Shown: positions 40,241 through 50,240 of the stretch, piece by piece
Numbering within the stretch: position 1 is the first letter of the stretch
Layout: each line of letters begins with the position of its first letter
Assembly: GCA_011772205.1 (NCBI GenBank)
Contig: WVZY01000010.1
Location: forward strand, 1 to 64,000
DNA length: 64,000 nt
Reading direction: 5' to 3'
Source: Candidatus Latescibacterota bacterium
GTDB taxonomy: Bacteria > Krumholzibacteriota > Krumholzibacteriia > WVZY01
The notes under the pieces: generated by a model
Databases searched by the model: none
What the model saw: the letters and a program-made list of their open reading frames with translations, nothing else
What the model was told of the DNA's origin: nothing
Made by a program: the position numbers and the translations under genes

Positions 40241-40723
40241 TTAGACGAACGTCTTCAGGATTTCGTTCTGGATCTTCTGCAGGTCCGAGTAGGCGCCGTT
40301 GATTTCGTTAATCTTTTCCTGAAGATCTTTGAGAAGCTTCTGCTTCTCCAAGCCGTTTCGGATAATGATGAGAAGGTCATCGTTATCCCACGGCTTTTCG
40401 ATGTATTGAAAGAGACCAACTTCGTTGATTGCCTTTATGGCGTTTTCCTTATCCGCATATCCAGTCAGAATGATCCGCGGTATCTGTGGTTTCAATTCTC
40501 GCACCTTTGCAAGGAAGCTTATGCCGTCCATTTCGGGCATCAAATAATCTGAGATGACGAGGTCCACATCATTGCTCTCAATGTACTGGAGAGCTTCCCT
40601 CGGGGAAGTGTGCGAAACCACGTTGTAACTCGTCTCCAACCCCAAGATCGAGTTGAGACTTTGCAGTACCATTTCCTCGTCGTCCACGATGATGATAGTA
40701 GGTTGGTCTTTACCGTTATCCAT
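40241..40723 (-). CDS. Response regulator (receiver plus coiled coil)
   Basis: This 160-residue protein has a full receiver domain (residues 8-125). It contains acidic VDDEE, phospho-acceptor Asp in LVISDYLMPEMDG, Thr in IILTGYA and Lys in IEKPWDN. This subgroup precedes HD-GYP or GGDEF domains in larger proteins, but here the receiver is followed only by a short coiled coil (QKLLKDLQEKINEINGAYSD) and a stop. It probably acts by protein contact. AGGAG lies upstream of the ATG. It follows the PAS kinase by 93 bases, its likely partner. Confidence 0.9.
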   Translation of the reverse strand: MDNGKDQPTIIIVDDEEMVLQSLNSILGLETSYNVVSHTSPREALQYIESNDVDLVISDYLMPEMDGISFLAKVRELKPQIPRIILTGYADKENAIKAINEVGLFQYIEKPWDNDDLLIIIRNGLEKQKLLKDLQEKINEINGAYSDLQKIQNEILKTFV

Positions 40724-40816
40724 GCTTATCTCCTGTTTGTTGTTCTTATACGGTTACAAAAATCCCCTTCTGTGGCCGGACGCCTCTGGAGAACGTATGC
40801 AACACTCTAAAATCGT

Positions 40817-42400
40817 CTACCTCTCTCGTGCAATCGGAAGAATAATCCGAAATGTCGAGCCTTTGCCCACTTCACTTTCGACTTCTATTTGTCCTTTATG
40901 ATCTTCGATAATCTGATACACGATCGACAACCCCAATCCCGTCCCAACACCAGTACCCTTGGTCGTGAAGCCGGGATCGAAAATCCGTTTTAGATTCTCC
41001 TTGGGGATGCCCCTACCGCTATCGCGAAACTCTATAACGATGGACCCATCTCTTTGATAGGTACGAATGAAAACATCTCCCTTATCTTCTATCGCCTGGC
41101 TGGCATTCACGAGAATGTTCATGTAAACCTGATTCAGCTGGTTAGGATAGCATGTAACTTTGGGAATGTCTCCGTATTCTTTATGAACCTCCACACGATT
41201 TTTCAGCTCGTGATGGACGAGTGTCAACGTGCTGTCCAAACCTTCGTGCACGTTTACAGTATCGAGTTCTGCTTCATCGAGCCTGGCGAATCTCCTCAAA
41301 CTGTTGACGATCTTCGAAAGACGCCTTCCAGCAGTTCTTGTGACCACGCTCATTTCATCGATGCATTCGAGGAGCTTTTGTATCTCCTCATGTTCGTGAA
41401 TCATCGAAGCTACCTCTGGTTTATCAATAATGCCATGAAGTTTCTCCATGGATCGGATGGTCACATCATTATTGCTGATCATCGCGCCGAGTGGTGTGTT
41501 GATTTCGTGGGCAACGCCCGCAACCAAATTTCCGAGAGCAGCCATTTTCTCTGCTTGTATGAGCTGAGCTTGCTTTTGCCGGAGCTCCTTCGTCCGCTCT
41601 TCAACCTTATCTTCCAATTCTTCATTCGCCTTTATCAGCTTCTCCTGCAGTCGCTTGCGACTGGTAATGTCTTGCGCAATCGCCACCTCGCACCACGATC
41701 CTTCTTCATTCATAAAATAGTTCAATGTGAAAAGAAATATCCTGCCATCCGGGTAGGAGCGTTCTTCCGCATAGGCTCCCGTCTCCTCGAGATACGATTT
41801 CGTGGGTACGGCCATCAAAGCCGGAGATTGATGCCACCGAATATGAAATGTGTCTTCGAGGTCCCCATAAAACATGTCCCTTAGCATTTTATTCTCGAAA
41901 TCCACCTTTGGGTCCGTATCTACATCCTTTTTCACACCCAGACCAATAGGCACCAAATCAAAAATCTGCTCGTAATACCTACGTTGAAATTCGTTCTTTT
42001 TCTCCAATTCTCTTCGGCTTGTGACATCCCGGCAGATTCGTTGAATAACCTTCTTATCATCGTAGGCAACGACGGATGCGCTGATATCAACGACCACTTG
42101 CGAACCGTCTTTCTTCAGGAAATGGAGCTCGTTGCATTCACCGACGCCGGTTTCCGATACGCGATCAAATAACTCCTTAACGGCTCCTTCTTCCTCTGGA
42201 GGATGAACATCCCAGACATTCATTCCAACCAGTTCCTCCACCGCATAGCCCGTTATTTCTTCAGCTTTCGGGTTGGCTTCCAGGATTTTCGCAGTGGACG
42301 CATCAACGGTGAAGATCGCATCGTACGCTTTTTCGATCATCTTGCGATACTTTTCCTCCGATTCTTGGAGGAGCTTCATTTCTTTTTTGCGTGAAAACAT
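40817..42400 (-). CDS. PAS-domain sensor histidine kinase
   Basis: This 527-residue soluble kinase has two PAS domains at residues about 12-130 and 150-260. A coiled coil (LEDKVEERTKELRQKQ) leads to the phospho-acceptor box GNLVAGVAHEINTPLGAM. The ATPase domain has N-box VYMNILVNASQAI, DSGRGIP and GTGVGTGLGLSIV. No membrane helix is present, so it senses a cytoplasmic signal or works with a partner. The ATG at 42400 is preferred over a 39-residue upstream extension. It lies between the cyclic-nucleotide-fold protein and the response regulator. Confidence 0.92.
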   Translation of the reverse strand: MFSRKKEMKLLQESEEKYRKMIEKAYDAIFTVDASTAKILEANPKAEEITGYAVEELVGMNVWDVHPPEEEGAVKELFDRVSETGVGECNELHFLKKDGSQVVVDISASVVAYDDKKVIQRICRDVTSRRELEKKNEFQRRYYEQIFDLVPIGLGVKKDVDTDPKVDFENKMLRDMFYGDLEDTFHIRWHQSPALMAVPTKSYLEETGAYAEERSYPDGRIFLFTLNYFMNEEGSWCEVAIAQDITSRKRLQEKLIKANEELEDKVEERTKELRQKQAQLIQAEKMAALGNLVAGVAHEINTPLGAMISNNDVTIRSMEKLHGIIDKPEVASMIHEHEEIQKLLECIDEMSVVTRTAGRRLSKIVNSLRRFARLDEAELDTVNVHEGLDSTLTLVHHELKNRVEVHKEYGDIPKVTCYPNQLNQVYMNILVNASQAIEDKGDVFIRTYQRDGSIVIEFRDSGRGIPKENLKRIFDPGFTTKGTGVGTGLGLSIVYQIIEDHKGQIEVESEVGKGSTFRIILPIARER

Positions 42401-42491
42401 TATAACTGGTTCCTTCTGTCCATGAAATGGACGAAAAATTGGAGGTTTCTTGGTGACGATGGGGTTTATCGAAGCGAGCGCTCGTCGAACG

Positions 42492-42938
42492 CTAGGATGT
42501 GCCCTGCGGCGGTTCAACCCTCACCCGCTCGATCAAACCCCGAAGTCGCCGCACCATCGTTCTTAAAACAGCTCGGGTGATCTCCACGTTATCCGCAAGA
42601 AGCTCATAGAAATCATCGTGATCAATACGGAGGAGCCTCGTATCCTCGATGGCCGTGGCCGTCGCCACCCGGGGCTCCTCGTCGAACAGCGCCCAGGTTC
42701 CGAAAGCATCTTTCGAACCGGCTGTCGTGATCTCCTGACCCTTCCGGTGTAGACGAATGCTCCCATCGAGAATCAGGTAGAGTGCATCAGAAGGATCGTT
42801 TTGATTATAGACAACTTCGTCCTTCAAAACTGTAATCTCCTCTGCAATCGCGGCCAAATAGGTGAGTTGCTCGGTTGGCACTTGAGAGAAAACATCCACA
42901 TTTTGCAGGAATATCACTTTTTCGATCGTGGTAAACAT
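42492..42938 (-). CDS. Cyclic-nucleotide-binding-fold protein
   Basis: This 148-residue single-domain protein follows the CRP/PKA beta-roll pattern (KVIFLQNVDVFSQVPTEQL, DALYLILDGSIRLHRKG). There is no DNA-binding domain. The phosphate-binding cassette reads FGTWALFDEEPRVATATA. The Arg of PRVAT is kept, but the Glu of the usual FGE-x-AL is Thr, so cAMP binding is doubtful. Many relatives of the upstream transporter carry such a domain at their own C-terminus after HEAT repeats; here it is a separate gene 71 bases downstream, probably acting with the transporter. A TTG start overlapping the transporter stop is possible but less likely. Confidence 0.82.
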   Translation of the reverse strand: MFTTIEKVIFLQNVDVFSQVPTEQLTYLAAIAEEITVLKDEVVYNQNDPSDALYLILDGSIRLHRKGQEITTAGSKDAFGTWALFDEEPRVATATAIEDTRLLRIDHDDFYELLADNVEITRAVLRTMVRRLRGLIERVRVEPPQGTS

Positions 42939-43009
42939 TTTTCGATCCTCTCTGATTCCTAAACATACGATGCTACCCACCCGCTGTGAAGGCTGGTTCT
43001 CGGAGCGTT

Positions 43010-45784
43010 TCAACCGCGCACACGGGCGATTGCATAACCGGCGGTCTCGCGGACGATCGGATCCGGATCTTTCCGAGCTTCTTCAGCCAAATCCAAAAGA
43101 TTCTCTCGAGGCGACTCCCCTAGAGCAAACAACGCGCAGGACTTGAGCCATGGATCGTCTCCTCGGATCAAGCATTCGAGGCCGTGATCCAGATCTTTTA
43201 TCTCGAGCTGAAAAAGATCCTGCCCCTTTCGTACGGTAACCTCAATAGAAACTTGGTCGAGTATCGGGATAAGATACTTCTTGAGATTTTTGCCCAACAC
43301 ATTATCGAGAAATTCAATGGCACTGGCCCTAAGCTCTTTTCTCCCGCTTATGATACCAAGATAGGCACTGTATATGTCCGACGGCCCGTACCGCAGAGCC
43401 AGCAAACGGAATATGCGTTCGAGATTCGAGTCGAGCTTCTCTTCCAATGCTTTCCCCAGGAGCCGGGAAGCAGGATCGTCATCTGTTTTGCGATGAACGT
43501 GTAGTATTTGAAGAATCTCGTAGTATGATTTGGTTTCTTCAATCAGCGCTTCCAGAACCTTGTCTTCCTTAAAGCGTAAATCCGGGAATTTGCTTCTCAA
43601 ACTGCTGAGGGCCCTGACAACATGATATTTCAGCTGAGGATGAGTAACATCAAGGTTTATTGTAAGAGTATCCACTGCTAACTGAGTTGGAATTTCCCTC
43701 ATTACGCGCGGAACGCTGCGGCGCACAGCGAGGGACACCCTATCGTCGCGGAAATGGTCGCTCAGCGTTCCCAGGATGCGATCCCCGTAAGCGGCCAAGG
43801 CTCCGCGCGCATCCGCGCGATATCTACTATCAGAAAGCTTCACCAACAGACTCGGAACGAGATCGCGATCCTGAGTTTTGCCGATGCTTTCGATGGCTTG
43901 TTTCACGACCGCCGGGGAGGAATCATCAAGGAGCTCGAGCAGCAACTTTCTCAAGGCGGGAGAACGAACCGATGCCAGAGCTTTCGCCGCCTGGATCCGG
44001 CAGGCTTCCCCTTCTTTACCTTCTCGTGCGATCAAAGATTCAACTGCACCCGTCTCTGCGAGGCGATCCTCATCGAAACCATCACACTCTGCCGCGCAAA
44101 CCACCGCAGCGGCTTGTACGAGAGGATCGGAATCTTTGAGGTAACGGTCAAGGACCTCTACAGCGCCATCGGGAGAGTTGTAACACAAGAATTGCATTGT
44201 CCGGAGACGGACTTCGGAATCTTTGTCTTTCAAAAGAGGCTCCATTTCCGGTACCAGGTCGCCGTTCTCCTGGTTGTGAAGGACCTGGATTGCTTTGATG
44301 CGAACCTCCGTTGACGCGTGTTTCAGCAGGGGTTTGACTGCAGATACAAGGTCTCTATCCCTCACCGAGCTCAACATGTTCAAAGCATAGGCTACCTGAC
44401 GATCATTATCGCTCTGGAGAGCCGCTATCAGAGTTTTCAATGTGTTCGACTCCTCCGGATTGATCCGGAGTTCATCGAGATTGATCGCGCGCTTCTCCAA
44501 CGCGCTCCTGAACGCGTTCACGTATTCCTTTCGAATGAAAAGTGCCAGAGTCATCCAGACGCCAAGCAACACGAACACGACGATGCTGATTTGCCTGACA
44601 GAAAGATGGAGAACCAGCGTGAAAAGCAACAGGAACGCACCCGCAAGACCGCGGAACCATCTGTCCACGAACATGTCGATGAAAAGCTTTGTTCTTTTTT
44701 TGATCTCGAGCGGCACCGGCAGAAAGAGAAGTTCGCGTCCAGTTTTATCAATGGAATACCGGAAGCTGCCGTCCGTTCCCCGAAGCAGAACACCGGATAA
44801 CAAACCCGGGTACAAAAACACCATTATCGATCCGAAGAGAAGGCCTCCCGGAAGGAAGAAAATAGCGCCACCGACCCCGAGGAGACGAATGAATCTATTG
44901 GTGAACAAAAATTGAAGCAGCAGCGACACGATGCTCAACCGCCCATAGAACTTACCGAGGAAGGACGTGAGATCCTCTTTTGCAGGGAAAGCGTCCACCG
45001 ATATTGCTTTGAACTGAAAATCCACAAAAGACGCGGTCATCATGGCCGTCGCTATAATGCCGACAATAAATACCAGATGCCTGGAACGGCGAACCATCCG
45101 AAACATATCTGCGAAACTTTCCTTGCGTTTCTCTTCGCCGTATCTCGACTTACGCACGGGCGCCTTTCGAGGTTCTCCCTCCCTCCGCTTGACCGCCCAT
45201 ATGACATTCAACAGCACCAGAGTGAGAGACAATACTCCCATGCAGATGAACAGGAGATTCTCGGTCTTGACATTGAAGTTCCGGATTATGAGGCTGGTGA
45301 CTTCCCCCCCCGTCGTTGCGCCGAGTATGCCTCCAAGGCCAATCAGCGCGAATATACGCTTCGCCTGCCCTGCATCGAAAATTGCGTTTGCAAAAAGCCA
45401 GAACTGGGATGTTGTCAACGCCCCGTATAGGCTCACCCAGATGTAAAACAAGTAGAAAATCCAGCCCTGCTCCAATGTCAGAAGCCATCGAAGGATGATG
45501 AGATTCAGAATCAGAACAATCGTTGTCCACGCGAGGAGCTGATTCAGTCTGAGGGACCTGCTGGCCTTCGAATAGATCGTTGTAATGGGAACGACGACAA
45601 TTGCGATGAGAATGAATACCAAGGGGAGCTGGCTCGCACCCAGCTTGACCAGAAAAAGGCTGTCCCTGGCCGGTTTGAGGAAGTAATACGTTACGAGAAT
45701 AAAATAGTAATAAAAGACCATCAGCAGGGCGAGCGTGTACTCACCCTTGCGTATATCGAAAAATGATCTCAGAATCCGATTCAC
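43010..45784 (-). CDS. ATP/ADP translocase-like (NTT) transporter with HEAT repeats
   Basis: This 924-residue protein has an N-terminal MFS-like membrane domain of about 12 helices (residues 15-430). The opening EYTLALLMVFYYYFILVTYY and PARDSLFLVKLGASQLP are typical of the Npt/TLC nucleotide transporter family. Parasites use members to exchange host ATP for ADP; roles in free-living bacteria are poorly known. From about 445 to the end lie HEAT-type alpha-repeats (for example DSEVRLRTMQFL, DSSPAVVKQAIESIG). The start overlaps the metallophosphoesterase stop by 4 bases. Coupling to a phosphoesterase and a kinase-like lipoprotein suggests nucleotide delivery to the periplasm; this is inference. 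Confidence 0.88.
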   Translation of the reverse strand: MNRILRSFFDIRKGEYTLALLMVFYYYFILVTYYFLKPARDSLFLVKLGASQLPLVFILIAIVVVPITTIYSKASRSLRLNQLLAWTTIVLILNLIILRWLLTLEQGWIFYLFYIWVSLYGALTTSQFWLFANAIFDAGQAKRIFALIGLGGILGATTGGEVTSLIIRNFNVKTENLLFICMGVLSLTLVLLNVIWAVKRREGEPRKAPVRKSRYGEEKRKESFADMFRMVRRSRHLVFIVGIIATAMMTASFVDFQFKAISVDAFPAKEDLTSFLGKFYGRLSIVSLLLQFLFTNRFIRLLGVGGAIFFLPGGLLFGSIMVFLYPGLLSGVLLRGTDGSFRYSIDKTGRELLFLPVPLEIKKRTKLFIDMFVDRWFRGLAGAFLLLFTLVLHLSVRQISIVVFVLLGVWMTLALFIRKEYVNAFRSALEKRAINLDELRINPEESNTLKTLIAALQSDNDRQVAYALNMLSSVRDRDLVSAVKPLLKHASTEVRIKAIQVLHNQENGDLVPEMEPLLKDKDSEVRLRTMQFLCYNSPDGAVEVLDRYLKDSDPLVQAAAVVCAAECDGFDEDRLAETGAVESLIAREGKEGEACRIQAAKALASVRSPALRKLLLELLDDSSPAVVKQAIESIGKTQDRDLVPSLLVKLSDSRYRADARGALAAYGDRILGTLSDHFRDDRVSLAVRRSVPRVMREIPTQLAVDTLTINLDVTHPQLKYHVVRALSSLRSKFPDLRFKEDKVLEALIEETKSYYEILQILHVHRKTDDDPASRLLGKALEEKLDSNLERIFRLLALRYGPSDIYSAYLGIISGRKELRASAIEFLDNVLGKNLKKYLIPILDQVSIEVTVRKGQDLFQLEIKDLDHGLECLIRGDDPWLKSCALFALGESPRENLLDLAEEARKDPDPIVRETAGYAIARVRG

Positions 45785-47061
45785 CGTGATCCTTCCCTAC
45801 CGGCGATCTGGGCTCTTTCCAGTTGAAACTTTTCCAGCAATCTGATCGGTTGCTCAGGGTCCCCGGTTACTGCGAATGTCTCTACTGTCAAGTTCTCAGT
45901 GGAGACCTCAGCCAGGCAGTAGTGATGCACTTCTGCCACATTGACGAGCTGACAGCTCACTACCTGCTCATTATAGCGCTGATGGCACTCCTCGACTACC
46001 CTTTCAGAGACCTCACGAATCGGAGCCCCTCCACCGCTGCTCACAACGAGGTGTATCACCTCATTTTCTCCGCTTTTATCGCCAGCGCTTCCGATAACTA
46101 TGTGCTGATAGAAGTGATCGTGTCCGGAGAAGACCAGCTGAACGCCTTCTCGTTGGAACAGCTCGATTAGCCTCTTTCGCTTCTCACCGAGGTTTCGGCC
46201 GCAAGAGGGATTTGTCCAATCCGAATTGTGTTCTCCAAACGATAAGATAGAATGATGAAAGGCCACTATTTTGAAGACGTTCTTGCGCGCGCGCAGCTCG
46301 CGCTCCAACCATGCGGGCTCACCGGAAGTGACGTCGGAAACAAACCACTTCTCGAAAAGCGCATCCTGAGTATCGTCGTCGACTTCCTGCTCCTGGTCGA
46401 GAATGAAATTGGAATCCGTCACAAAAAGCGCCGCATCCGGAAAATCCACCACGTAAAACCGCGGATAATCGAATATCGCCCGGTAGTTGGGCAAACCATA
46501 AATTTCATCGTTGGTGCGATCGTGGTTTCCCGCGGTGGGGAGATACGGTACTTCCTCCAGCAAGGGATGCTTTTCCTTGTTTTCCTGCAAAAACATTTTC
46601 CAGTGGCTGGGTCTGCGCCCGTCGTGTGCGGCGATATCCCCCACATTCAAAATGAAATCCACCTTCGAACGCTTCGCTTCGGCATAAATCGCATCGCGAA
46701 CCATCAAACGCTCTTTCTTACCGTAGTCCGGCGCGTGTCTCCACCAGTTGACGCCTCCCACAATCCCGTTACCTATCAAGTACAACTGATAGAATGGGAT
46801 AATGGCCATTTTCCACGTGGCCCAGTTTTTCTTTCTGACGAACTTCTCCTTGCCGCGCCAGCCCGCCTGGTTGTCTCCGATGACAACGAATTTCGGATTG
46901 TTCTTCTGAGGACCGTCCGGCAGGAGCTTTGGAACGCGGTAAAACTCTTCCGGGTACTTTTCCCGAACGAGCCCTTTGCTTGCGCATCCGGCGCTTCCCG
47001 CAAGTAGAAGCGAAGCGATGATGATCGTTACAATTTTCCGATGCACTGGCTGTGTTCTCAT
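45781..47061 (-). CDS. Lipoprotein metallophosphoesterase
   Basis: This 426-residue protein starts with a lipoprotein-like signal (IIIASLLLAGSAGC, Cys26). The calcineurin-like phosphoesterase motifs are all present: VIGDNQAG, NVGDIAAHDG, TAGNHDRTND, VAFHHSIL and FSGHDHFYQH. The first motif lacks the usual D-x-H histidine, as in purple-acid-phosphatase-like members. It therefore hydrolyses phosphate esters or phosphoproteins outside the cytoplasm. It follows the kinase-like gene by 12 bases and overlaps the transporter gene by 4, so the three products are probably made together. It could reverse the reaction of the kinase-like protein. Confidence 0.88.
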   Translation of the reverse strand: MRTQPVHRKIVTIIIASLLLAGSAGCASKGLVREKYPEEFYRVPKLLPDGPQKNNPKFVVIGDNQAGWRGKEKFVRKKNWATWKMAIIPFYQLYLIGNGIVGGVNWWRHAPDYGKKERLMVRDAIYAEAKRSKVDFILNVGDIAAHDGRRPSHWKMFLQENKEKHPLLEEVPYLPTAGNHDRTNDEIYGLPNYRAIFDYPRFYVVDFPDAALFVTDSNFILDQEQEVDDDTQDALFEKWFVSDVTSGEPAWLERELRARKNVFKIVAFHHSILSFGEHNSDWTNPSCGRNLGEKRKRLIELFQREGVQLVFSGHDHFYQHIVIGSAGDKSGENEVIHLVVSSGGGAPIREVSERVVEECHQRYNEQVVSCQLVNVAEVHHYCLAEVSTENLTVETFAVTGDPEQPIRLLEKFQLERAQIAGREGSR

Positions 47062-47073
47062 TCGAGCACCCGG

Positions 47074-48798
47074 CTATTCCTCGCGTTCCAACCCCAGCAA
47101 GACGTATTCGCCCGACGCCCGATCGAATTCGATAAACACTTTCACCCATTTGCTCCATCCGGCATTGCTGCCTCTGCGGGTTTGGATCTTGGCTTCGAAA
47201 TAAGTCTCGTCCGAACCCGGGTCGACCGGCAATTCGAGGCATGTTGAAGCCGCCATTTCATCATTGGAGACGATGGTTTGCCCACCTTTCAGCAGTTCGT
47301 ACTTATATCGGGTCTCCGATCCGGATTCGAGTCCCCCTTCATTAGCAAGGTCGGCGAAGCACAATTCGCTTTTACCGCTGGAAGCGCTACGAATCTCGAA
47401 CCCGTCCAGGGGATTCATCCGGCTGAACCAGTACCGTCCCACGAGGTTCCGGCGCTCTATTAGCATACGCAGAATGTATGCAGCGGCGTTCGGGTCCGAG
47501 TAGTCGCCTGCAGCGACGGCTGCTTCCAGCTGCTCGTCCGTGAAAGACATCACGATCTTTGCCGCCCAAAATCCGTCGTTTCCGGTGAGGTTTTCGAAAG
47601 CCGGGTTGGGTACGTATGGCTTGTACTTGTGCGGGTGAAACAGCTCCGCATCATAACGACCCACAGAGGGATACTCCGGATCGGGGGCTTTTTCATATGG
47701 CCGTACATACAGGCCCAAGGTGAAAACGTTCTTTGTTATTTCATGCGGATCGAAAAAGTTTTCATGTCCGGTGGGCCTTTTGACGGGTCCACGAGCTCCC
47801 GCCCCAAGCGTCGAGCCGAAATCAATGAGATAATGCCTCACGTAACTCCGGCCGCCTTCGGTGACGTACATGTCGAGTGAGTTGCTGGACTTCGTATCGA
47901 AGTGCGCCAGCCATGCGGCAATTACTCTGAGCCCACGAAGCTCGCGCCGGTGGTGATGCGGTATGATGTCGTTCGGATCGTCCTTGCGGATTCCTTTGTA
48001 TTTGAAAGGGCCAAGCGGTTTTCCCTTCAAGAACTTGCTCGCAACAGCGCGAATACGGCCGTCCGGTAGACGATCCAGTCTTTCGATTATCTCATCGAGA
48101 TCGGCCTGGGTCATAAATCGCTTTCTTCCCTTTTTGTCGGTGAATTTCACCTCTTCTTTGAGTCGGAGGATCCTGGGATGGAAATACACCACATAGTTCT
48201 CCGGAACATGATACCCAGCCGCGTAGAGAAGTTTGGTCGAAACAACCTCGGCGCCGGTGATCAATTCCGGATGACCCGGGGGATCGAACTTGATCAAATA
48301 ACGATCGCCCCGGCCGTCCACAATTTGAAATCCCGGGGTAACACCTTCCGCTTTCGCGCTGACCACATTCCAGACATTTTCCATATCCGGGCCCGTGCCC
48401 GTGTCCGGGCCCCGCTTGATCTCCTCGATGGTCATTCGGTGCACGGCATTACGATTGGTGAACCAGCTCGAACTGGGTACCTCGCCAAAGGCATCTGCGT
48501 TCATCGACTGCTTTGGCCGGCCCGCCAATTTTCTGAAGTGTCGCGAAAAATCCAGGAGTTGATCGAGTTGCTCCGTAACCTGCATGTCGAAGGAATCGGC
48601 CACTATGTTTATCTCGCTCTCCCTTGGTTGGGGGATATCCATGCGGTCATCGGGAAGGGCTGGCGGAGGCTGAAAGCGCGACGGCCCACCACACCCCACT
48701 GAGATCGTCAAGAGCAGCAATAGTGCTCCGTACAGAGCGATAGTCCCGCTGTAATCGAGAACTTTCAAAACACTCTTTTTCATGTAATTCTTCATCAT
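47074..48798 (-). CDS. Lipoprotein with a protein-kinase-like core
   Basis: This 574-residue protein has a lipoprotein signal (LLLLLTISVGC, Cys36). No named family came to mind, but the order of kinase-fold residues is striking. DRYLIKFDPP gives a beta-3 Lys (Lys170) and TGAEVVSTKLLYAAGYHVPE a helix-C Glu (Glu184). AAWLAHFDTKSSNSLD follows as a catalytic loop (Asp301, Asn306) and HYLIDFGSTLG as a metal-binding DFG (Asp326). This resembles HipA/PI3K-like atypical kinases. Residues about 480-574 form a separate beta-rich C-terminal domain. Activity outside the cytoplasm would need exported nucleotide. It lies 13 bases after the Omp85-like gene. Confidence 0.7.
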   Translation of the reverse strand: MMKNYMKKSVLKVLDYSGTIALYGALLLLLTISVGCGGPSRFQPPPALPDDRMDIPQPRESEINIVADSFDMQVTEQLDQLLDFSRHFRKLAGRPKQSMNADAFGEVPSSSWFTNRNAVHRMTIEEIKRGPDTGTGPDMENVWNVVSAKAEGVTPGFQIVDGRGDRYLIKFDPPGHPELITGAEVVSTKLLYAAGYHVPENYVVYFHPRILRLKEEVKFTDKKGRKRFMTQADLDEIIERLDRLPDGRIRAVASKFLKGKPLGPFKYKGIRKDDPNDIIPHHHRRELRGLRVIAAWLAHFDTKSSNSLDMYVTEGGRSYVRHYLIDFGSTLGAGARGPVKRPTGHENFFDPHEITKNVFTLGLYVRPYEKAPDPEYPSVGRYDAELFHPHKYKPYVPNPAFENLTGNDGFWAAKIVMSFTDEQLEAAVAAGDYSDPNAAAYILRMLIERRNLVGRYWFSRMNPLDGFEIRSASSGKSELCFADLANEGGLESGSETRYKYELLKGGQTIVSNDEMAASTCLELPVDPGSDETYFEAKIQTRRGSNAGWSKWVKVFIEFDRASGEYVLLGLEREE

Positions 48799-48811
48799 GC
48801 CTGGCCACCTG

Positions 48812-50125
48812 CTAGTTGAGGTTGAAATGGAACCGGAATTTATCGAGTCCTTTGCCCAATTCGATTCTCATTACGAGCCCTTCACCGGACCATATCCGGA
48901 ACCCACCGCCATAGGCGTATTGGAGATCACCTTTTGATAGATCATCGAACATATCGGGTGCTACTTTTCCCGCATCGAAAAACAAAATGGCATCCATTCG
49001 TTGCCATATTGGGTAGCGATATTCCACAGAGCCAAGTATCAGATCATTATCACGGAATCGCCCCCGGTCGTACCCCCGGATGGTCTCCTGGCTCCCGAAC
49101 TCACTAAGATAGAAAAAAGGTACCTCCCGGTCCGACAGGGATTCCGTCATCTCGCTTGCTATCCTGAAAACGAGAACCCGGTTATAAAAGAGATGGAGAT
49201 ACCGAGTGAGATCCACAGTCGCTCTCCAGAAGCCAAACCGGTCATCATCAACCTCGCGGTACAGATCGCCGCGGATCATTGCTTCGGCGCCCGTTGAAGG
49301 ATTTCCCATCCGGTTCTTCGAATCATATTGCAGTACCAGGCCGGCCCACCCCATCCGGATTTCCGTTTCCATACCGGGAAGCGTGTCTCTCGTAAACAGA
49401 TCCGTTGTGGATGGAAGGCTCTTGTCGTGACCCGGCAATATGTTGTTATGATCGAAACCGAACTGGAGACCGAGGTTGACTCTCGCACCCAACTCCGCCG
49501 ATAGCGACGCCAGCGCCTCGACCCGCTCGTGGGCAAAGTTGCTCTTGTCACCATCAATGGTCTCCGGACCGATTCCAAAAAAGTTTTCATCGGAGAGCAT
49601 CCTGTACCTGCCGCGAATTTCCCCGCATACGGGGCTGCCGAAAAGCCTGACGCGCTTCAGGTATATCTCATAGAGCTGCCGGCTCCTCAAACCGACCGTT
49701 GCCTTCATCTGGAACCTCGATCCTTCGGTAAACAGATCCTTTTGAAAGAATTTGACTCCGGCCCCGGATCGGGAGGAGTACGTCGGATATAGACCCCGCT
49801 TTCCATCATCTGACGTCAGAAAGTCAACCGTCTTTGGAATGATCTTGCTGTCATCCACCCAGCCGGCCAAACCCGATCCTCCCTTGAAAACGATTTTCAA
49901 TGGCAAATAGATTATCCTTCCCGGAAACGAAACAACGCGTTCCCAACCGCTCCGGCTCGATCTCTTCTTCGGATAGGCTTCTGTGCTGTCTGGATTTTCG
50001 ACTTCGGAGCGGGCCGCTTTCTGCTCCTGAGCAGATCTTGCAGCTTGGACCTGAGCCCCGAATACGAGCAGCCCGGCGATGAGTGCCACGGACCGGCCAA
50101 CGTGAATGCGCATGTACTTTTTCAT
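48812..50125 (-). CDS. POTRA-less Omp85/BamA-family outer-membrane protein
   Basis: This 437-residue protein has a signal peptide (ALIAGLLVFGAQVQA). A short periplasmic segment follows (residues 25-110) that is too short for POTRA domains. The rest is a surface-antigen-type beta-barrel. The conserved Omp85 motif of the sixth loop is seen as ETIRGYDRGRFRDND. The protein ends in an alternating strand (FRFHFNLN). It is the first gene of the kinase-phosphoesterase-transporter operon. It could export or anchor the operon's lipoproteins, or simply form a pore. The ATG at 50125 is better than an upstream frame that lacks a signal peptide. Confidence 0.85.
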   Translation of the reverse strand: MKKYMRIHVGRSVALIAGLLVFGAQVQAARSAQEQKAARSEVENPDSTEAYPKKRSSRSGWERVVSFPGRIIYLPLKIVFKGGSGLAGWVDDSKIIPKTVDFLTSDDGKRGLYPTYSSRSGAGVKFFQKDLFTEGSRFQMKATVGLRSRQLYEIYLKRVRLFGSPVCGEIRGRYRMLSDENFFGIGPETIDGDKSNFAHERVEALASLSAELGARVNLGLQFGFDHNNILPGHDKSLPSTTDLFTRDTLPGMETEIRMGWAGLVLQYDSKNRMGNPSTGAEAMIRGDLYREVDDDRFGFWRATVDLTRYLHLFYNRVLVFRIASEMTESLSDREVPFFYLSEFGSQETIRGYDRGRFRDNDLILGSVEYRYPIWQRMDAILFFDAGKVAPDMFDDLSKGDLQYAYGGGFRIWSGEGLVMRIELGKGLDKFRFHFNLN

Positions 50126-50211
50126 GGTCAACTCGCCTGAATTAGGATTACCAAGGGTAACGCCAACAATTGATAAGATGATATTCGAACAATTCAAGAT
50201 GTGAGCTTAAT

Positions 50212-50240
50212 AAAATACATTATCGCATCAATCTTGTCAA
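50212..50240 (-). promoter_or_regulatory. Sigma-70 promoter of the Omp85-kinase-transporter operon
   Basis: TTGACA (50235-50240) and TATTTT (50212-50217) are 17 bases apart on the minus strand. A second TTGACA lies 11 bases further upstream. The leader to the ATG at 50125 is about 80 bases. No other promoter of similar quality was seen before the downstream genes. The remainder of 50241-50505 shows nothing else. Confidence 0.7.

Follow-up and report, generated by a model that had tools for sequence, protein, structure and literature searches.

The window analysed here, a stretch of 64,000 nucleotides from a Candidatus Latescibacterota bacterium (contig WVZY01000010.1, positions 1 to 64,000), carries an operon in which a predicted exported lipoprotein with a kinase fold (hereafter KIN) is encoded together with an Omp85-type barrel and an ATP/ADP-translocase-type nucleotide transporter (NTT). 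This conserved cluster suggests phosphorylation beyond the cytoplasm in some bacteria, in a space usually assumed to contain no ATP. Its core unit is the barrel together with KIN, and the NTT is a near-constant genomic companion. The four genes first recognised form an uninterrupted run with spacings of 13, 12 and -4 bases, exactly as described in the original prediction:

48812 to 50125, minus strand: Omp85 barrel (PF01103, E 2.9e-14; longest open reading frame with a TTG start at 50197)
47074 to 48798, minus strand: KIN, putative exported kinase-fold lipoprotein, 574 amino acids (AlphaFold2 model, Foldseek, conserved motifs, export signals)
45781 to 47061, minus strand: lipoprotein metallophosphoesterase of the purple-acid-phosphatase type, accessory (PF00149, E 1.6e-13)
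43010 to 45784, minus strand: NTT-HEAT transporter (PF03219, E 1.2e-23, and HEAT_2)

The profile matches bear out the identities proposed earlier for the barrel, the phosphoesterase and the transporter. For the barrel, the true start is probably the ATG at 50125, which is followed by a signal peptide and is preferred over the TTG at 50197.

KIN is predicted to be an exported protein with a kinase fold

KIN gave no sequence match in Pfam, NCBIfam or the PDB. The protein is laid out as an export signal (residues ~1–35), a lipobox cysteine (Cys36), a conserved N-terminal extension (~45–140), a kinase-like core (~143–460) and an FN3-like beta domain (~496–572). Using the alignment of its relatives as input, AlphaFold2 yielded a model with a pLDDT of 92.8 and a pTM of 0.91, in which an N-lobe made up of strands 143–149, 156–160 and 166–171, the last of which holds K170, and of helix 179–194 is followed by a C-lobe and the C-terminal beta domain. 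Compared with the PDB by Foldseek, this model matched Fam20C/Golgi casein kinase best (E 6.9e-5, probability 1.00), and CtkA, Rio2, Fam20C1 and PI4K2A came next. Kinases were the only matches with E ≤ 0.001, FN3 proteins, which correspond to the C-terminal domain, ranking below them, and a search of an independent library, of viral structures, again retrieved kinases.

The series of Lys, Glu, HxDxxxxN and DFG motifs on which the kinase assignment had originally been based is real (Lys170, Glu184, HFDTKSSN at 299–306 and DFG at 326–328) and is conserved more strongly than any other part of the family's sequence. Among 83 aligned relatives, K170, N306 and D326 are each kept in 83/83 and D301 in 82/83; most of them have a catalytic loop of the form HxDxKxxN, accompanied by DFG or DFA. 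Such an invariant active site disfavours the possibility that KIN is a pseudokinase.

An N-terminal hydrophobic export segment was present in all 75 relatives that could be tested, and KIN is therefore expected to act outside the cytoplasm, as had been anticipated. The lipobox reported for the window protein is shared by 51 of these relatives, but does not extend to the whole family, about a third (24/75) being signal-peptide proteins without a lipobox. On the strength of the predicted structure and the conserved sequence features, we regard a kinase fold combined with export as nearly certain.

The fold as such would also be compatible with a different chemistry, such as AMPylation, glutamylation or the phosphorylation of glycans or lipids, the NTT still being the nucleotide supplier. 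Lipid kinases (PI4K2A) stand beside protein kinases among the fold relatives of KIN, and the Fam20 relative Fam20B is reported to phosphorylate a sugar (PMC5865150). However, HxDxKxxN and DFG are ordinary phosphotransfer motifs and no sequence sign of a flipped nucleotide was seen, making this alternative quite unlikely.

The KIN family is widespread and paired with an Omp85-type barrel

A single scan of 84,980 species genomes retrieved 481 stretches encoding KIN relatives, and all locus counts given here refer to the best 80 of these 481. These 80 loci belong to Poribacteria, Zixibacteria, Calditrichota, KSB1, Latescibacterota, Gemmatimonadota, Acidobacteriota, Nitrospira-type bacteria, Balneolota (Fodinibius) and other records, and KIN was found in 20 of 58 related genomes. 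By sequence, KIN thus represents a new, widespread family. The recurrence of the gene set, which had been proposed as a check, was observed across phyla: in 68/80 loci the gene immediately preceding KIN encodes a barrel, and 41/80 contain NTT genes. Of the 12 loci without an upstream barrel, at least five start at the edge of their contig; in three more, a fragment of a barrel or an overlapping frame is present.

The AlphaFold2 model of the window barrel (pLDDT 88.7) comprises 16 strands and a conserved N-terminal helical segment; POTRA domains are absent from the model, nor was there any POTRA match in Pfam. Its nearest folds in Foldseek are the TamA and BamA barrels (E 1e-13), with which it has in common the 16-strand architecture and the [VIL]RG[FY] loop motif of the superfamily, whose arginine (R350) and glycine (G351) are each kept in 63/64 sequences. 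Unlike TamA and BamA, it lacks POTRA domains and is paired with KIN instead of BAM lipoproteins or TamB. Judged by sequence profile and model, the barrel is a member of the Omp85 superfamily that is neither BamA nor TamA, and its genomic distribution makes it an obligate-looking partner of KIN.

Three loci (L081 and L100, both in tandem, and L090) contain two barrel–KIN pairs, suggesting that the pair duplicates as a unit; tandem barrel–KIN/barrel–KIN arrangements are as expected for cognate partners.

Several further observations concern the surroundings and relatives of KIN. Genes for PAP2-superfamily membrane phosphatases lie just upstream of the barrel–KIN pair in several loci (L096:5447-6433, L057:5473-6468, L063:5659-6603, L101:5576-6490, L097:5486-6421 and L117:176-1135). 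In L068 (1488-3245), KIN and an NTT gene are separated by genes for a Na/Pi cotransporter and PhoU, which would fit recovery of released phosphate. A protein of ~420–450 amino acids recurs after KIN in three Zixibacteria-type loci, followed by a PAP2-type gene (L093:9674-10942, a copy without a Pfam match; L102:6586-7935; L105:9779-11128).

In the acidobacterial phylum, we also encountered a shorter related family of ~350–410 amino acids (L141:637-1680, L142:331-1380, L143:1321-2478, L145:585-1829). Its members have no Pfam match, mostly carry an N-terminal hydrophobic segment and keep the Lys, Glu, DxxxxN and Asp series; hhalign relates L141/L142 to KIN with an E-value of 8e-17. Going by these sequence features, they are probably further exported kinase-like proteins.

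The presence of KIN is linked to that of NTT transporters

The NTT-HEAT protein consists of a PF03219 membrane domain (~1–430) and HEAT repeats (~430–924), and matches the solved NTT1 structure 9j3n (E 1.5e-12). A signature spanning E351-x4-P356-x5-K362-x3-K366-x3-D370 is kept in 20/20 sequences and is present in both solved NTTs as well. No PF03219 gene other than the operon copy was found in the home genome (4.13 Mb). Many of the KIN loci encode a single-domain NTT, with or without NTT-HEAT, and where NTT genes occur in the locus the order is often a single-domain NTT followed by NTT-HEAT and a gene for a protein with a cyclic-nucleotide-binding domain (cNBD).

At the genome level, PF03219 was detected in 48 of 50 KIN genomes from many phyla and in none of 14 named control genomes. 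Within the home phylum, 31 genomes have both KIN and PF03219, one has KIN only, one NTT only and 45 neither (Fisher p 1.9e-19). The genomes compared in this and the other groups are partly incomplete, and kinship was controlled for by family strata in the home phylum, where the association persisted (Cochran–Mantel–Haenszel (CMH) p 1.2e-12). Two other causes were tried and rejected. Genome size does not account for the association, as genomes of at least 3.2 Mb alone give 26/1/1/17 in the same order (p 3e-10), and a generally richer transporter set does not either, since SulP, used as a control transporter family, yielded p 0.12 in the same family-stratified CMH test. The association agrees across three separate groups, the other two being the acidobacterial phylum (both 29, KIN only 4, NTT only 29, neither 136; p 1e-14) and the class of Fodinibius (both 26, KIN only 5, NTT only 8, neither 160; p 9e-21). 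In the latter class, KIN and NTT lie within 10 kb of each other in 23 of the 26 genomes with both; locus L115 of Fodinibius roseus, for example, comprises NTT-HEAT, barrel and KIN. Taken together, a functional link between KIN and the NTT is very likely.

A divergent KIN subtype (E ~1e-103 to 1e-124) occurs in the class of Fodinibius, either alone or as a second copy (genomes G475, G476, G479, G480, G483, G484, G487, G488 and G489); where it is alone, NTT was not detected in those genomes.

The close tracking of KIN by the NTT also bears on an alternative in which the barrel carries KIN to the cell surface and KIN acts there as an ectokinase, with ATP coming from other cells or being secreted, and the NTT serving nucleotide recovery. 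A POTRA-less Omp85 barrel paired one-to-one with an exported protein does resemble a dedicated translocation partner, and KIN is a predicted lipoprotein or secreted protein. Taken alone, however, this alternative offers no reason for NTT presence to follow KIN so closely, and most such environmental bacteria could not rely on free ATP outside the cell; we consider it unlikely.

The phosphoesterase is an accessory component

The phosphoesterase profile matches purple acid phosphatases such as TRAP (E 1.9e-11), and plant enzymes of this type as well. Cys26 is invariant in 16 sequences, and the protein is therefore taken to be a lipoprotein. The residues G178, N179 and H180 as well as G313, H314 and H316, which belong to the GNH[DE] and GHxH motifs, are likewise invariant, whereas the tyrosine iron ligand of the GDxxY motif is missing: the window protein reads GD-I-A-A at this position, and Tyr is found in just one of the 16 sequences. 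Since the gene occurs in only 24/80 KIN loci, the phosphoesterase is regarded as accessory, and the original suggestion that it opposes KIN is a tentative one.

The operon could alternatively be a system for scavenging nucleotides or phosphate, with import of nucleotides by the NTT, trimming of these by the phosphoesterase, and KIN acting in the envelope as a phosphotransferase or pseudokinase that senses or salvages nucleotides. This would fit an acid-phosphatase-type lipoprotein whose profile is also related to diphosphonucleotide phosphatase, together with the PAP2, Na/Pi cotransporter and PhoU genes of related loci. Yet the limited occurrence of the phosphoesterase counts against this reading, the invariant active site of KIN speaks against a mere sensor, and the dedicated outer-membrane barrel is left unexplained. 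Scavenging thus appears to be as unlikely as a surface ectokinase.

The operon extends into a putative control circuit

All genes of the operon are on the minus strand and follow one another, in the direction of transcription, as barrel, KIN, phosphoesterase, NTT-HEAT, cNBD, PAS histidine kinase and response regulator. The original prediction was thus right about the first four genes but ended the operon too early. The additional elements are:

42492 to 43013, minus strand: cNBD protein (PF00027, E 8e-20)
40817 to 42517, minus strand: PAS-domain histidine kinase (PF13426, PF00512, PF02518)
40241 to 40723, minus strand: stand-alone response regulator receiver protein (PF00072, E 2.7e-28)
50212 to 50240, minus strand: promoter-like site TTGACA-17-TATTTT (consensus scan 10/12), just upstream of the barrel

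The cNBD gene overlaps the stop of NTT-HEAT by 4 bases and is a neighbour in many relatives too; translation may start at an in-frame ATG ~25 codons inside the open reading frame. The PAS histidine kinase, which adjoins cNBD also in L027 and L030, is probably regulatory and part of the same transcript, and the response regulator is kept in L026, L027 and L030 at 69–72% identity. Both genes (40241-42517) are kept with the NTT-HEAT/cNBD genes in sister genomes, and the pair is likely to be the control circuit of the transporter. A single promoter ahead of the genes had also been proposed. A suitable site is indeed present upstream of the barrel, but it provides positional evidence only, because such matches occur at chance level in the region (8 found, 8.5 expected).

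A model for phosphorylation outside the cytoplasm

We propose a model in which the operon would encode an extracytoplasmic phosphorylation module. The site of action of KIN would be the periplasm or the outer membrane, and its partner there a dedicated Omp85-type barrel, which may either place KIN at the surface or be its scaffold or substrate. Since ATP is lacking in the envelope itself, the NTT would be the supplier: an ATP/ADP exchanger of this type in the inner membrane would bring ATP out and take ADP back, with HEAT, cNBD and the two-component pair exerting control from the cytoplasm. Phosphate would be removed again, or leaked nucleotide degraded, by the lipoprotein phosphoesterase. Phosphotransfer itself, ATP as its donor, the outward direction of ATP transport, the substrate and the parts played by barrel and phosphoesterase are inferred here. 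The gene set, the kinase fold, the catalytic residues, the export signal, the barrel pairing and the KIN–NTT linkage are, for their part, well supported by sequence and structure prediction.

This is the simplest reading that covers every tested feature, and the phosphate-handling neighbours in other loci (PAP2, Na/Pi cotransporter, PhoU) count in its favour. Furthermore, none of the three observations named beforehand as contrary to an envelope kinase (a structure without a kinase fold, poor conservation of Lys170, Asp301 and Asp326, and lack of recurrence) was made.

Several points weigh against the model. The Foldseek TM-scores of KIN are low (0.26–0.50), owing to extra domains and divergence, so that the fold assignment draws on ranking, probability and the position of the motifs in combination. 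The alpha-C glutamate E184 is found in 67/83 relatives and replaced by Gly, Ala or Asp in the other 16. Sequence-level homology between KIN and HipA is not significant. In the three tested groups, 10 KIN genomes (1, 4 and 5, respectively) have no detectable NTT; of the five from the Fodinibius class, four hold solely the divergent KIN subtype. To our knowledge, the well-studied NTTs all import host ATP or supply plastids, and we know of none for which export to the periplasm has been shown. The NTT-HEAT subfamily has no proven substrate (PMC5381601).

Weighing these points, we judge the whole chain, from a kinase outside the cytoplasm that is coupled to an Omp85 barrel to its supply with ATP by the NTT, to be somewhat probable. 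The wider proposal that in Gram-negatives of many phyla the NTT exports ATP to the periplasm for Fam20C-like secreted kinases with an Omp85 barrel, forming a counterpart of the secretory-pathway kinome, is more tentative and has close to an even chance.

Relation to known systems

The nearest solved fold of KIN, Fam20C/Golgi casein kinase of the animal secretory pathway, is likewise an exported kinase that is active outside the cytosol on carrier-delivered ATP. In contrast, KIN is a lipoprotein of bacteria that ends in an FN3-like domain and has an Omp85 barrel as its partner. With no sequence match in Pfam or the PDB, it does not belong by sequence to the Fam20 family, a cluster described as specific to eukaryotes or Metazoa (PMC9758233).

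The second-best solved fold is CtkA of H. pylori. Relatives of KIN, though not KIN itself, show sub-threshold matches to HipA_2 and HipA_C (PF20613, PF07804; best E 0.065–0.097). Homology to HipA was nevertheless not accepted, as an alignment of profile hidden Markov models with HipA proteins of the same phylum covered the beta3-Lys/alpha-C stretch only (p 0.008, probability 5%). The operon holds no HipB-type antitoxin gene and the home genome no HipA_C gene, and HipA is cytosolic whereas KIN is exported. KIN would thus work by analogy with animal secretory-pathway kinases, yet by sequence is a member of neither the Fam20 nor the HipA family.

The spore-coat kinase CotH is an atypical bacterial kinase acting on an assembled outer structure (PMC7821199), as is proposed for KIN. 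It differs in working inside the cytoplasm of the mother cell during Gram-positive sporulation, with ATP at hand, and is not known to have a transporter or barrel partner; KIN has no CotH profile match. LpxT adds a phosphate to lipid A in the periplasm (PMC2229476). Its likeness to the proposed module lies in the phosphorylation taking place in this compartment. The donor used by LpxT is undecaprenyl pyrophosphate and not ATP, and the enzyme is of the unrelated PAP2 type.

NTT-HEAT fusions with a downstream cNBD gene, the same arrangement as here, were described by Major et al. in 2017, with proposed roles in ATP exchange and no demonstrated function (PMC5381601). The passages found there connect this arrangement neither with an exported kinase nor with an Omp85 barrel, and the word 'kinase' is absent from the text. 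The original view that the composition had not been described before therefore holds for the combination and not for its NTT-HEAT/cNBD part: in open-access papers, we found no exported kinase with an NTT or Omp85 protein, nor the KIN family, its barrel pairing or its NTT dependence. The fold class, the NTT-HEAT–cNBD operons and Omp85 barrels are already known. By its parts, the cluster therefore adds a new family to a known fold class, and it would be new in kind only if it is a phosphorylation system.

The bacterial envelope is usually treated as ATP-free, and periplasmic phosphorylation so far uses donors like undecaprenyl pyrophosphate. If the model is true, a widespread exported kinase family together with an ATP/ADP-translocase-type transporter would overturn this view for many phyla. 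The uncharacterised NTT-HEAT transporters of free-living bacteria, left as an open question in their description (PMC5381601), would gain a concrete role that can be tested, and cultured organisms in which the model could be tested are Fodinibius roseus and F. salsisoli.

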